DNA of 64,000 nucleotides, from the NCBI RefSeq assembly GCF_030408595.1, contig NZ_CP047080.1:869501-933500 (forward strand). Reading direction: 5' to 3'. The stretch's first letter is position 1. Every line of letters starts with the position of its first letter. Of this stretch, positions 2,168 through 48,858 are shown piece by piece. The notes below the pieces were generated by a model, which saw only the letters and a program-made list of their open reading frames with translations, had not been told where the DNA came from and did no database searches. The DNA comes from Corynebacterium canis (lineage in GTDB: Bacteria; Actinomycetota; Actinomycetes; Mycobacteriales; Mycobacteriaceae). Both the position numbers and the translations under genes were made by a program.

Positions 2168-3646
2168 ATGGTAAAGCCATCCCAAATCCACTCATTGATT
2201 GCGTCCACGCCCAAAGATTTGTTCCTCGCGGGGCGTTGGGCGGCCGCCTCAGACGGCGGAGTGCTGGAGGTACAAAACCCAGCGACAGGGCAAACCCTCG
2301 CGCACGTTGCCTCCGCGACTACGGAGGATGCGCACACCGCCTTACGCGCCGCGCTTGACGTCCAGAAAACCTGGGCGAATACTCCGGCGCGACGGCGTTC
2401 GGAAATTCTCTATCGTACGTTCGAATTAATACATGCGCATGCCGAGGAATTGGCGCTTTTGCAAACCCTCGAGTTGGGCCGTGCGCTGCCGGATTCGCGG
2501 GCCGAAGTGGCGTACGGTGCCGAGTTTTTCCGGTGGTTCGCCGAGGAAGCCGTGCGCATTCGTGGCGACTACCGCGTGAACCCCGCAGGAACAGCTCGAA
2601 TCCTTGTGCGGCAAGAACCGGTGGGTCCGGTTTTAGCCGTTACGCCCTGGAATTTCCCGCTTGCTATGGGTACGCGCAAACTAGGCCCGGCGTTGGCCGC
2701 AGGGTGCACCGTGATTGTGAAACCAGCTTCAAAAACACCGTTAACCATGCTGTTTTTAGCAAGGCTCTTAAAGGAAGCTGGGCTGCCAGATGGCGTTGTC
2801 AGCGTGTTACCCTCGGCCCGCGCCGCCCGAATCTCCTCGCTTTTAGACCAGCCCGGGTTGCGTAAACTCACCTTCACCGGTTCTTCGATTGTGGGGCAAA
2901 AACTTGCGATTAAAGCGGCGAAGCATTCGCTGCGGGTAAGCCTCGAGCTCGGCGGCAACGCCCCCTATATCGTCTTGCCCGACGCGGATATCGACCTAGC
3001 CGCTAAAGAGGTGGCGATCGCGAAGATGCGCGGCGCCGGCCAGGTTTGCATTGCCGCCAATCGATTCCTTGTTCACTCTTCCCTTGCCGACGAGTTCGTA
3101 CAAAAGGTCGCCGCAGAAATGGCCACGTTTACCCTCGGCCCCGGCTGGGAAGAAGACGTCAATTTCGGCCCACTTTCCGGCGCCGACCAGGTGGAAACCG
3201 TGCGCACGCTTGTCGACGACGCGGTGGCCCGTGGCGGGCGGTTAGTGTGGGCCGGGCGCACCCCGGCGTTCGGTCCTGAATTCGAAGGCGGTGCATGGTA
3301 CCCGGGGGCCGTGTTGATTAATGCCCCCGAATCGTCGCCGATCCACCACGATGAGATTTTCGGCCCGGTGATTAGCGTCACTACCTTTGAGACGGAAGAG
3401 GAGGTGATCGCCAAGGCCAATAACACCCCCTATGGGCTCGCCGCATACGTGTTCGGTTCGCCGAATGCTGCGCTGCGAGTCGCCGAATCCCTTGAGGCGG
3501 GCATGGTGGCGATCAACCGCGGTGCGCTTTCCGACCCAGCAGCTCCCTTTGGTGGCGTGAAAGAATCCGGCATCGGCCGCGAAGGTGGATTCGAAGGCAT
3601 TCACGAATTTCTCGAAACGAAATACATCGCCCTGCCCTTGGACTAA
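2168..3646 (+). CDS. NAD(P)-dependent aldehyde dehydrogenase, succinate-semialdehyde dehydrogenase-like
   Basis: A 492-residue aldehyde dehydrogenase that oxidises an aldehyde to the acid with NAD(P). Visible family features are the cofactor-site sequence VTPWNFPLAMGTRK, the FTGSS loop, the catalytic glutamate in LELGGN (about E260), the nucleophilic cysteine in GAGQVCIAANR (about C294), and EIFGPV. The overall pattern resembles GabD-type succinate-semialdehyde dehydrogenases, but substrate cannot be read from sequence. The start at 2168 sits close behind the divergent pgi promoter; the frame is open upstream to 2102, which would overlap the pgi start. No partner gene lies downstream, so a role in GABA use is unproven. 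Confidence 0.85.
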   Translation: MVKPSQIHSLIASTPKDLFLAGRWAAASDGGVLEVQNPATGQTLAHVASATTEDAHTALRAALDVQKTWANTPARRRSEILYRTFELIHAHAEELALLQTLELGRALPDSRAEVAYGAEFFRWFAEEAVRIRGDYRVNPAGTARILVRQEPVGPVLAVTPWNFPLAMGTRKLGPALAAGCTVIVKPASKTPLTMLFLARLLKEAGLPDGVVSVLPSARAARISSLLDQPGLRKLTFTGSSIVGQKLAIKAAKHSLRVSLELGGNAPYIVLPDADIDLAAKEVAIAKMRGAGQVCIAANRFLVHSSLADEFVQKVAAEMATFTLGPGWEEDVNFGPLSGADQVETVRTLVDDAVARGGRLVWAGRTPAFGPEFEGGAWYPGAVLINAPESSPIHHDEIFGPVISVTTFETEEEVIAKANNTPYGLAAYVFGSPNAALRVAESLEAGMVAINRGALSDPAAPFGGVKESGIGREGGFEGIHEFLETKYIALPLD

Positions 3647-3791
3647 CCCCATCGCTTTTGCGCGCTCACTGCATTACCCACTGAATCGCTACCTGCACCA
3701 CCCGCCGAATTTGCCTCGCCTGCTAGGTTTGAGACGCCTGCCGAATCTGCCTCGGGCTACCTGCATTCAGTGGGCCCTTCAGCCAAACCGA

Positions 3792-4246
3792 TAGGTTGTG
3801 CACCGTACATGAAGTTTTTTACACACGAAACGCCGATTTTGTGTAATTTTCATCATCTGGGGCCGCCCAGTGCCGCCAGCGCGATATTTTTTACACAGAT
3901 TTCGGGATTTTGATGTAAAAAATATCGGTAGACACCGTTCAACTCTGGCCGCGCTAATAAGTTGTGTACGCCCTACCATATCAAAATGCCGCGTTTTTCG
4001 AAACTTGGCCATAGTCTACCAAGGGTAGCGGACTTCGGGTCCTTAGAGGGGCTGCTACTGCGTTTGTTTCAATTGGTCAAAATATATGGCTTCATATCTG
4101 TCACTGGGCCGGAAACGATGCGCCCAGAATTGGGGTTGGTGGGCGCCGGGCTGACGGCGATTTTGTGGAGTTTCTAGTCTCGCCAAACTTCCGAACCCAG
4201 CCTTGGCGCGAACCGCCGCCACACAAATAATCTGCTATGAATTCAT
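3792..4246 (+). repeat. Dispersed double-hairpin repeat, copy 1 (long form)
   Basis: The core, about 184 bases (3792-3975), starts TAGGTTGTGCAC and ends GTGTACGCCCTA, giving imperfect terminal inverted repeats. It contains a perfect 14-bp stem (3882-3895 with 3914-3927; arm CGATATTTTTTACA) and a second stem TTACACA / TGTGTAA near 3819-3846. Homology with the copy at 48114-48586 continues rightward through ACCAAGGGTAGCG to TATGAATTCAT at 4236-4246. No open frame with RBS support is seen inside. Confidence 0.85.
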
Positions 4247-4392
4247 CTCTTTCACTGAAACCCTTCCCGGATTGTGGCGCAGGCTAGGCAGAAGTGCGGG
4301 TTGGATCGAGTCGGGTTTGGCGCGCGGCGGCGGACCATCGGTGATGACGACACAATCTGGCCCGTCGTCGGGCTATTGGCCGGCGGTGGGGG

Positions 4393-4640
4393 TAGGTCGC
4401 GTACTTCACATGAAGTTTTTTACACACGAAACGCCGATTTTGTGTAATTTTCATCATCCGGGGCCGCCCAGGGCCGCCAGCGCGATATTTTTTACACAGA
4501 TTTCGGGATTTTGATGTAAAAAATATCGGTAGACATCGTTCAACTCCAGACATGCCAATAAGTTGTGTACACCCTACCATATCAAAATGGCGCGATTAAC
4601 GGAACTTGGCCATAGTCGACCAAGGGTAGCGGGTTTCAAG
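4393..4640 (+). repeat. Dispersed double-hairpin repeat, copy 2
   Basis: The core at 4393-4576 is 184 bases, the same length as copy 1, with the same two hairpins and very few substitutions. It is followed by the shared flank CCATATCAAAATGG ... ACCAAGGGTAGCGG and then diverges. Same orientation as copy 1, about 600 bases away. Confidence 0.85.
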
Positions 4641-4712
4641 GCCTCAGCTGGGCTGCTATGGCGATTCGGGATTTGGGGTATTTATCGCGTGTGATCAGTT
4701 CCAACCGCCAAG

Positions 4713-5357
4713 CTACGGAGTTTGGGCGCCGTCGGGCTTGTCGGTTTGGGCGTCCTCGGGGTTTTTGAATTGGAAGAAGAGAACATCGCTCCACGTGCCG
4801 AACCCAAGGGAGTAGAAAAGATCTTGGGCGGACCGGTAAGGTTCGAATTCGCCGGACTCCCACGTTTTAATAACGCGTTCGATGTCCCCGTCGACGGTGT
4901 TTACTGAATTGAAGAGATTGTCCGCCTCCCGCTCGAAGTCGGCGAGGCCGTCGCAGACCAGCTCAAATACTTCGCCGGGCTCCATCCGGAAATGCGTGCA
5001 CCCTGAGAAACGCTCGTCAAACAATTCCTTGCGGGTTCCAGCAAATTCTTCCGCTACGAAGTCTTCGGGCAAGTGCAGGTTTTTGCTGTTTACCTCGGCG
5101 AAGCGCTCCATAAACCGAAGGAGTGCTTCGCGGCCTTCCGTAAAGGAGGCGCGAATGGCAATCGGGCCGACGAATTCGCCGGTGTCCTCGTCTTTTTGGT
5201 TGTCGCCGTGAATGGCCGAAGAAACGCGCTCCGCGCGCACGCTGCAGAGCAATTGGTAGGCTAGCGGAATGCCGCTGCTGAATTCGCCGACGGAAATGAT
5301 TGCTGTGGTGCCATTTTCGCGGGGACGTTCGGCATAAAGGTACGTGCGGTTCGCCAT
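4713..5357 (-). CDS. Conserved hypothetical protein (MANRTYLY type)
   Basis: A soluble 214-residue acidic protein of unknown function with no signal peptide or membrane segment. It begins MANRTYLYAE, an opening I associate with an uncharacterised bacterial family. The middle holds GFVAEEFAG-like acidic helices and the tail is low complexity (PEDAQTDKPDGAQTP). The start is supported by AGGAAGG eight bases upstream. It stands alone between a repeat block and the chorismate mutase gene, so context gives no function. Confidence 0.75.
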   Translation of the reverse strand: MANRTYLYAERPRENGTTAIISVGEFSSGIPLAYQLLCSVRAERVSSAIHGDNQKDEDTGEFVGPIAIRASFTEGREALLRFMERFAEVNSKNLHLPEDFVAEEFAGTRKELFDERFSGCTHFRMEPGEVFELVCDGLADFEREADNLFNSVNTVDGDIERVIKTWESGEFEPYRSAQDLFYSLGFGTWSDVLFFQFKNPEDAQTDKPDGAQTP

Positions 5358-47271: not shown

Positions 47272-47826
47272 GTCTATTGGGGGTGGGTTTGTTCGCTGGG
47301 TGCGGGTTGTCTGTTCGGGTGGATTGTCAGTTGGGGTGGATTGTCCGTTGGGGGAGTTCTTTGTCCGCCGCGCTGGCCAGTGGAATCCGAAGCTTGTGTT
47401 TCAAGAATTCCATGCGGGGCGTGCGCGGCCTTTAGTTAGAACTCGATTACTCGTCTATGTTGTCGGTGTCTATGTTGCGGTGAGTTCCGTGGCGTAGACC
47501 TGTTCCGCTGGGGGAGTGTCTATGGAGGGGGTATTTGCCGAGGTAGTGTTTGCAGAAGGGTGTGGCTTTTGCGGTTCCGGCAATTGGTAGGTGGGCAACC
47601 GGCCATAATCAATATGGATACATAATTTAATCTGTAGGATGTGTGGTGGGTGAGTTGGTGCCGGACGGCGTCTTTAGAAATAAAGCTCGTTACTATTTTG
47701 TGCTCAGTTTAAATAAGCCCGCTGTGGCCTTCAGTTTGCCCGCCGGATATTAAAGTATGGCCGAATTACGTCACAGTGACGAAAAGAAGCGCGCATTCGT
47801 TGTGGGCAATCCATTCCCATGGCCGG

Positions 47827-47979
47827 AGTTGAACGTTGTCTACCGATATTTTTTACATCAAAATCCCGAAATCTGTGTAAAAAATATCGCGCCGGCGGCC
47901 CTGGGCGGCTTCAGATGATGAAAATTACACAGAATCCGGGATTCGTGTGTAAAAAACTTCATGTGAAGTGCGCGACCTA
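47827..47979 (-). repeat. Dispersed double-hairpin repeat, copy 3 (core only)
   Basis: Inverted relative to copies 1 and 2. It carries both hairpins and the GACCTA end (47974-47979) but stops at GAGTTGAAC; the flank shared by the other three copies is absent, so it is a shorter form. Confidence 0.8.
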
Positions 47980-48113: not shown

Positions 48114-48586
48114 TATGAATTCATAGCATGTGGCGCTAGGGTTGGCGTTGTGAGATTGGCGGCGCTAGAAACCCGACAAAATCCGACAGGCCGAGTCCCA
48201 CCGGACGTCAGTCCCGCCGGACGTCCGCCGAACGCCCGCCAAACCTAATTCTGGTCGCGTCGTTTCCGGCCTAGCATCACATGTAAAGCTATATATTTTG
48301 ACCAACTGAAATGTTCGCTGTAGCAGCCTCTCTGGGGTCTCGAAACTCGCTACCCTTGGTCAACTATGGGCGACTTCCGTTAATCGCGCCATTTTGATAT
48401 GGTATGCTGCACGCAACTAATCGGCATGCTCGGAGTTGAACGGTGTCTACCGATATTTTTTACATCAAAATCCCGAAATCTGTGTAAAAAATATCGCGCC
48501 GGCGGCCTCGGGCTGCCCTCAACGATGAAAATTACACAGAATCCGGGATTCGTGTGTAAAAAACTTCATGCGCAGCACACAATCTA
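48114..48586 (-). repeat. Dispersed double-hairpin repeat, copy 4 (long form)
   Basis: Inverted relative to copies 1 and 2. The core is at 48433-48586. Homology to copy 1 continues leftward through CCATTTTGATATGG, CGCTACCCTTGGTCAACTA and ATATATTTTGACCAA to the palindrome TATGAATTCATA (48114-48125). This gives a full unit of about 470 bases with the hairpins at one end. Confidence 0.8.
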
Positions 48587-48760
48587 TTCCCTAGCCTGCC
48601 GACCTGCTGTCATTACGTCCCTCGCAGCATCCTAGCCCTGTGTTTCGCGTCCCGCGCCGATATCGCCGCACGTGGTTTATAGGGATCCCTGTCGAAATTG
48701 GCACCTCAAGAAACTCGGACAACCCAATAGCCCCAACGACCTCACGAAACCCAATAGCCC

Positions 48761-48858
48761 CAACCGGCCACAACCCCAACCGGCCACGCACCAACCGGCC
48801 ACGCACCCCAGCCCCAACCGGCCACAGCTTCAACCGGCCACAACCCCAACCGGCCCCA
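48761..48858. repeat. Short tandem repeat CAACCGGCC(AC)
   Basis: Six copies of CAACCGGCC occur at 14-24-base spacing between 48761 and 48858, separated by variants of ACAACCC or ACGCACC. No gene covers it. Confidence 0.7.

Follow-up and report, generated by a model that had tools for sequence, protein, structure and literature searches.

A paired double-hairpin repeat of Corynebacterium canis that probably forms a species-restricted, REP/REPIN-like family

The genome of Corynebacterium canis contains at least 95 copies of a double-hairpin repeat at 57 loci, arranged as 38 same-orientation pairs and 19 singles. These copies probably represent a species-restricted family of REP/REPIN-like interspersed palindromic repeats, for which a mobilising enzyme was not found. 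Four copies lie in the window, the whole 64,000-nucleotide stretch analysed here, where a sequence-only reading had claimed them, and reading the sequence confirmed each in its place. Copy 1 is a full unit of core and type-1 tail on the plus strand at 3792..4099 (iterated profile match 1-308, 287.3 bits). Its core occupies 3792-3939 (R1 model match, 178.9 bits), with hairpin 1 (ATGAA..TTACACA / TGTGTAA..TTCAT) at 3809..3853, placed by sequence and alignment pair counts, and hairpin 2, a perfect 14-bp stem read from the sequence, at 3882..3927 (arms 3882-3895/3914-3927). A plus-strand spacer at 4100..4392 leads to copy 2 and resembles those of several other pairs, with partners about 570–610 bp apart (831.4k, 2498.4k, 917.7k and 2708.8k). 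Copy 2, also a plus-strand core with a type-1 tail, lies at 4393..4678 (profile match 1-286, 289.7 bits; R1 182.1 bits), with hairpin 1 at 4410..4454 (sequence and alignment pair counts) and hairpin 2 at 4483..4528 (arms 4483-4496/4515-4528, from sequence). The two copies form a direct repeat of 88% identity with a perfect 14-bp stem in each. The earlier description of their cores as 184-base segments from TAGG to CCTA (3792-3975 and 4393-4576) holds, as does the retention in both of the stem CGATATTTTTTACA/TGTAAAAAATATCG.

Copies 3 and 4 are inverted relative to copies 1 and 2. Copy 3 lies on the minus strand at 47715..47979 (genome 917215-917479; profile), with hairpin 2 at 47844..47889 and hairpin 1 at 47918..47962, both read from the minus-strand sequence. 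It had been described as core only, which is wrong: it carries a tail of a second subtype (type 2) with a CGTCACTGTGACG palindrome. Copy 4, a minus-strand core with a type-1 tail, occupies 48279..48586 (profile match 1-308, 292.2 bits), and its sequence places hairpin 2 at 48451..48496 and hairpin 1 at 48525..48569 on the same strand. Imperfect short tandem repeats (such as CAACCGGCCACAACC) occur at window positions 48730-48800 and in the flanks of some other copies.

The genome contains 57 occurrences of the stem pattern TTTTTTACA-N10-30-TGTAAAAAA and none of its reversed control pattern; this repetition is far beyond chance. In a DNA search of the genome, the best 40 of 109 candidates all matched. 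A covariance model built from 42 copies, with the best 150 of 1707 candidates scored, gave at least 82 matches of 144 bits or more, plus weaker ones, many of which are known copies on the opposite strand. An iterated profile applied to the 445,550 bases around these places returned 100 non-overlapping records of at least 55 bits. Records of 30–55 bits (fragments beside IS insertions) were excluded, and joining the halves of five IS-split copies, for the count only, gives 95. The search for further copies suggested in the sequence-only reading thus ends at no fewer than 95 copies and 57 loci, and 95 is a lower bound because degenerate copies elsewhere in the genome may be missed.

The unit is about 300 bp long and combines a core of about 150 bp, with two inverted hairpins, and a fast-evolving tail of similar length (about 150 bp). 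Within the core, a GC-rich linker separates hairpin 1 from hairpin 2, after which comes a conserved GTAGACACCGTTCAAC. Read in reverse, the second half of the core is similar to the first, and the profile matches its own reverse complement over approximately model positions 20-135. By eye, GTAG follows hairpin 2 only (CGGTAGACA) and none is present at hairpin 1. In the copy at 950.2k, the stretch between two TTTTTTACACA motifs is missing, which leaves a single hairpin. Two copies, at genome 461312-461590 and 1429765, are rearranged, with hairpin order or sequence seemingly inverted inside the core. Tails fall into a common type, the CGTCACTGTGACG type and a few others, while in a few cores no tail can be recognised. 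TAGG marks a left edge that is mostly sharp, with 0 of 1326 matches among the 52 left flanks compared, and in a few loci (7 rows of that comparison) the left flank matches pair-spacer sequence. Examples are a match of 64 bp (98% identity) within the 2434k locus and one of 56 bp (96%) at 1578k; such spacer-like flanks suggest remnants of longer tandem arrays. A second repeat (194–330 bp, 87–90% identity, with a 48-bp piece at one locus) lies between or beside some copies at genome 796.3k, 2520k, 1856.9k and 1368.9k.

Paired copies lie 327–896 bp apart and share orientation in 38/38 pairs; in the copy list, no opposite-orientation copy occurs within 5 kb of another. For the 28 of 38 pairs with both cores in the analysed set, core identity is 0.917 within pairs vs 0.866 between loci. 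In 12 of these 28 pairs the closest core is that of the partner, and in 18 the partner ranks among the five closest. Partner tails are often unrelated, with core and tail identities of 0.98 and 0.47 at 109k and of 0.987 and 0.387 at 1578k. Alike cores with unlike tails suggest that the core was duplicated or converted locally; in each pair, one copy may have arisen from the other by local duplication, with core conversion afterwards.

Tail comparisons bear on the age of the family. The nearest tail at another locus has a median identity of 73% and a maximum of 83%, compared with a median of 51% for shuffled tails, and 0/77 exceed 90%. As tails at other loci are all at most 83% identical, the copies are not recent; with no closer tail at another locus, present mobility is not evident. 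The stems have changed little. Across 59 stem columns in 77 copies there are 54 differences, or 0.70 per copy, and 34 copies have none. These conservation figures refer to 77 of 95 copies, with IS-split, truncated, rearranged and unanchored ones excluded. The per-site frequency of differences is 0.014, 0.004, 0.028 and 0.001 across the four stem arms, 0.044 at the hairpin-2 apex and 0.019 at the 3' end of the core. It is higher elsewhere: the hairpin-1 apex and linker reach 0.18, the first 17 bases 0.21 and tail columns 0.29. Private changes, taken to reflect decay after insertion, affect 14 of 4543 stem cells vs 80 of 7777 tail cells (p 3e-6). Since divergence is so much greater in tails than in stems, the stems are apparently maintained, and selection or another maintaining process may keep them at each copy. 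Stem changes are not clearly more numerous in singles than in paired copies (0.92, n=13, vs 0.66, n=64; P 0.09).

Detection could possibly be biased toward copies with good stems. Decay with loss of the core is argued against because searches with tails met no tails whose cores were lost: all 30 type-1 tail or spacer matches among the best 40 of 49 candidates in the genome lie at known loci, and within the fetched 445 kb, profiles of two tail types gave 0/75 and 0/65 matches that lack a neighbouring core. The contrast between stems and tails could also come from numerous source copies that are long-lived and have constrained stems, or from tails that are hypermutable.

The relative used for comparison, G215, has the best pcrA match (79%), so that its closeness is judged from one gene. 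Twelve loci were examined. The repeat is absent from G215 at all seven with both flanks alignable, which bears out the proposal of a dispersed element with empty sites in relatives; at the remaining five, including the second window pair, one or both flanks were not found in the fetched G215 sequence. The interval in C. canis vs G215 measures 1077 vs 19 bp at 831k, 2172 vs 122 at 852k, 994 vs 0 at 940k, 1090 vs 84 at 949k, 2131 (including an IS) vs 49 at 962k and 365 vs 45 at 1630k. At 873k, the first window pair (3643..4766), it is 1124 bp vs 29, and the convergent genes that flank 3643..4766 stand one base apart in G215. No target-site duplication is recognisable at the loci read, where unaligned flanks remain on both sides of the repeats.

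Among other genomes of the genus (241 of 242), none matches model R1 at E 0.001 among the best candidates (at most 12 per genome, strict filters). A DNA search with at most three best candidates per genome gave only 22 bp in one (G151) and 28 bp in another (G241). The proposed search of other Corynebacterium genomes therefore returned nothing beyond these 22–28-bp matches among the best candidates of 241 genomes. They were taken as chance, as was a 29-bp match in G027, from another family of the same order. The exact 24-base stem pattern occurs in other genera at five places, in Bacteroidia, Cytophagales, Lachnospiraceae and Clostridia bins, which were taken as chance AT-rich palindromes. A plasmid or phage origin was set aside: the 849-bp pair has no match in plasmids or phages (distant mode), and two stem patterns occur at 0 places in viral contigs. 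Among the papers listed for Corynebacterium repeats, none has a title that describes this repeat, and the available part of PMC12306157 contains neither Corynebacter nor RAYT as words. The family would have been gained in C. canis rather than lost in all relatives.

The sequence-only reading had also suggested that the two pairs face each other and could support recombination or inversion of the 44 kb between them. This is not borne out: 14 of 14 alignment blocks of at least 250 bases between the window and the fetched G215 sequence have the same orientation, and the 38 pairs are direct, not facing. Inversion is unsupported because the window is collinear with G215. The second pair lies within a stretch of about 22 kb (window 39400-62100) in which no block of at least 250 bases aligns to the fetched G215 stretch and which holds ABC-transporter-like genes and a glycosyl-hydrolase-like gene (named by eye).

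The closest known parallels are REP and REPIN sequences. The part of PMC3116915 drawn on here describes REPINs as inverted doublets of conserved palindromes, separated by a variable spacer and able to fold into one long hairpin, and REP/REPIN sequences as intergenic and present in many copies per genome, with doublets more conserved than singlets (Bertels and Rainey 2011, PMC3116915). The repeat shares with them its many closely similar intergenic palindromes (95 copies, 57 loci), a variable spacer and an inverted doublet foldable as one long hairpin. It differs in that no cognate RAYT (Y1 tyrosine transposase) was found in the C. canis genome: PF01797 has no match there, whereas 6 of 14 control genomes match. 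This search rules out a strict RAYT-driven REP hypothesis for this genome. RAYTs sustain REPIN populations. Further differences are that, by eye, no symmetric GTAG/CGTC tag stands at the foot of each palindrome, and that the unit is larger than a REPIN, with its tail of about 150 bp, and usually grouped as two direct units 327–896 bp apart. The repeat works like a REP/REPIN family but is not classed as a member, as two defining features, the RAYT and (by eye) the symmetric GTAG tag, were not found. It would have multiplied as a non-autonomous element via its hairpins, by an enzyme other than any found. BOX elements of Streptococcus pneumoniae are modular intergenic repeats with stem-loops; their module order, sequence and host differ. 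The bcr1 repeat of the Bacillus cereus group is a stem-loop repeat of 147–167 bp in the excerpted description, and a title cited there calls it group-specific with mobile-element character (PMC2267715). It is likened here by description, and its host is unrelated. The portion of PMC8049555 consulted describes REPIN populations as lasting millions of years.

The repeat serves as an insertion target for an IS3-like element. This element is 1.7 kb long with two ORFs (197 and 363 aa; for example, genome 2784282-2785997). Its transposase has its best NCBIfam match to IS3 (NF033516) at 139.8 bits, below the cut-off of 160, while its proteins match rve PF00665 and HTH_Tnp_1 PF01527 above the Pfam cut-offs. 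A 39% relative of the transposase bears the name IS3 family transposase, and named relatives include Corynebacterium proteins. Among the best 40 of 112 candidates, at least 11 are near-full copies, of which seven, not all, lie inside the repeat. Four of these insertions are at the hairpin-2 apex, two at the hairpin-1 apex and one in the hairpin-1 3' arm. Three-base repeats border the seven in-repeat copies (ATT in six, ATC in one) and the other four (GAG, GCA, AAC and AAA), with the GCA copy adjoining a rearranged repeat copy. For this placement, the binomial p is 3e-17 if the target is counted as hairpins (95 x 60 bp of the genome) and 2e-12 if counted as whole units (95 x 300 bp). A truncated remnant of the element (genome 2488742-2489623) lies beside TTTTCCCCGCTCACGCGGGGATG-like repeats that resemble a CRISPR array.

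Insertion sequences that target REPs, which include IS3 family members, are known. In the sections of PMC1525189 used here, IS1397, ISKpn1 and ISPsy8 enter the palindrome, ISPsy8 with a 3-base direct repeat, and REPs often lie between convergent genes (Tobes and Pareja 2006, PMC1525189). The C. canis element resembles those three and, like ISPsy8, is inserted inside the palindrome with a 3-base repeat; unlike reported cases, 7 of 11 copies are in the repeat, the IS3 match is below its cut-off and the host is Corynebacterium-like. With gene calls from a home-made hexamer gene caller, 35 of 57 repeat loci lie at convergent junctions, as against 24 convergent ones among 266 control junctions drawn from the same regions (Fisher p 1e-16). 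The others comprise 19 loci between co-directional genes (8 same, 11 opposite) and 3 between divergent genes. Any overlap with a predicted gene stays within 60 bases at all 57 loci, and two loci overlap one by 3 bases. Locus strands are balanced (27 plus, 30 minus), and a replication-strand bias is absent (25/57). Near dnaA, 0 loci occur within 100 kb vs 3.7 expected (P 0.02) and 5 within 300 kb vs 11.2 expected, and the whole-arm KS test gives P 0.12, so that depletion is mild, cut-off dependent and weakly indicated.

A rather unlikely alternative is that the cores act as maintained sites for protein binding or DNA structure (nucleoid, replication-initiator or insulator sites located where genes converge) that happen to be repeated and are selected locus by locus. 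Near-invariance of stems while tails decay (private changes, p 3e-6) would fit such sites, as would convergent placement. In hairpin 2, ACAC is followed by A in 57 of 58 parsed copies, even though this position (column 117) lies opposite G and does not pair in 76 of 82 copies. Exactly two matches to TTWTNCACA, which we take to be the DnaA box consensus, occur in 61 of 77 cores, with one in 13, three in 2 and none in 1. Eight of the 13 matches in the window lie inside the four repeat copies, and the neighbourhood of dnaA (near base 1,400 of its stretch) has similar 9-mers. However, the hairpin-1 9-mer is lost in some copies that keep pairing, and conservation is higher in the 3' arms, which lack the 9-mer, than in the 5' arms. 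Orientation is unbiased with respect to replication, the depletion near dnaA is weak, and no detection in the other genus genomes searched means that the repeat is not essential in the genus.

The repeat is very unlikely to be a family of structured non-coding RNAs with one member at each locus. The sequence-only reading had offered a conserved structured RNA or a nucleoid site; the strong conservation of the stems stood, but covariation is weak. Single-stranded DNA is predicted to fold stably (z -2.0 to -4.8 for the strands folded), with one long hairpin best in 4 of 7 distinct copies and two hairpins in 3. Folded as RNA, the 288-nt unit barely outdoes shuffled sequences on either strand (z -0.8 and -1.4). 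The compensatory-change test that had been proposed alongside a covariance model, run on an alignment of 82 of 95 copies (A2), gave a divided result. For the two-hairpin structure, the covariation score (0.030 vs 0.024) beats 498 of 500 shuffles, with 2 reaching it, although related rows can beat this control without structure; pairs with two-sided changes number 4 vs a shuffle mean of 4.1, and two-sided cells 18 vs 13.2, with 18 reached by 25 of 500 shuffles. The long-hairpin structure has 4 two-sided pairs vs 2.2 (40 of 500 shuffles), with its score reached by 55 of 500. One hairpin-1 pair stays paired through changes on both sides in 8 copies, but a hairpin-2 mismatch is uncompensated in 22 of 82. 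These tests are low-powered because the stems hardly vary. At the Rfam gathering threshold, tRNA alone is found in the window, with no family for the repeat, and neither sigma-70-type promoters nor intrinsic terminators are enriched around the first pair; the convergent setting also counts against an RNA. Structure formed as DNA is plausible from these predictions and as RNA is not shown.

The other earlier suggestion was a MITE-like element with imperfect terminal inverted repeats; a classical MITE derived from a DDE transposon, with TAGGTTG/CAACCTA as those repeats, now appears very doubtful. The TAGG...CCTA ends of the 184-bp segment, the mostly sharp left edge and the sites empty in G215 would agree with it, but these ends lie inside the longer unit of about 300 bp, which continues into the tail beyond CCTA. 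No target duplication is readable at the best-resolved single copy, and the resident IS3-like element has different ends and targets the repeat. A small protein-coding gene on the reverse strand of the core can be dismissed almost entirely: 58 of 77 copies have a reverse frame without stops across the core, but third codon positions vary least in that frame (204 vs 290 and 245 differences in the 59 cores that are 152 bases long) and 16 of 77 core lengths are off frame (153, 151 or 150 bases).

A REP/REPIN-like family restricted to C. canis is thus the preferred reading. A further and quite improbable proposal is that the host has adopted the roughly 95 cores, most with two DnaA-box-like 9-mers (TTTTACACA) in their hairpin arms, as a dispersed, selected array of putative protein-binding sites. 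If so, the core array would titrate the replication initiator or mark convergent gene ends, and it would have evolved within one species, perhaps thinned near the origin. In this Corynebacterium-like host, old copies keep their stems without a detectable RAYT and with an IS3-like element settled on them. This makes testable the questions of what keeps REP-like stems without a RAYT and whether they have a host role at convergent gene ends.
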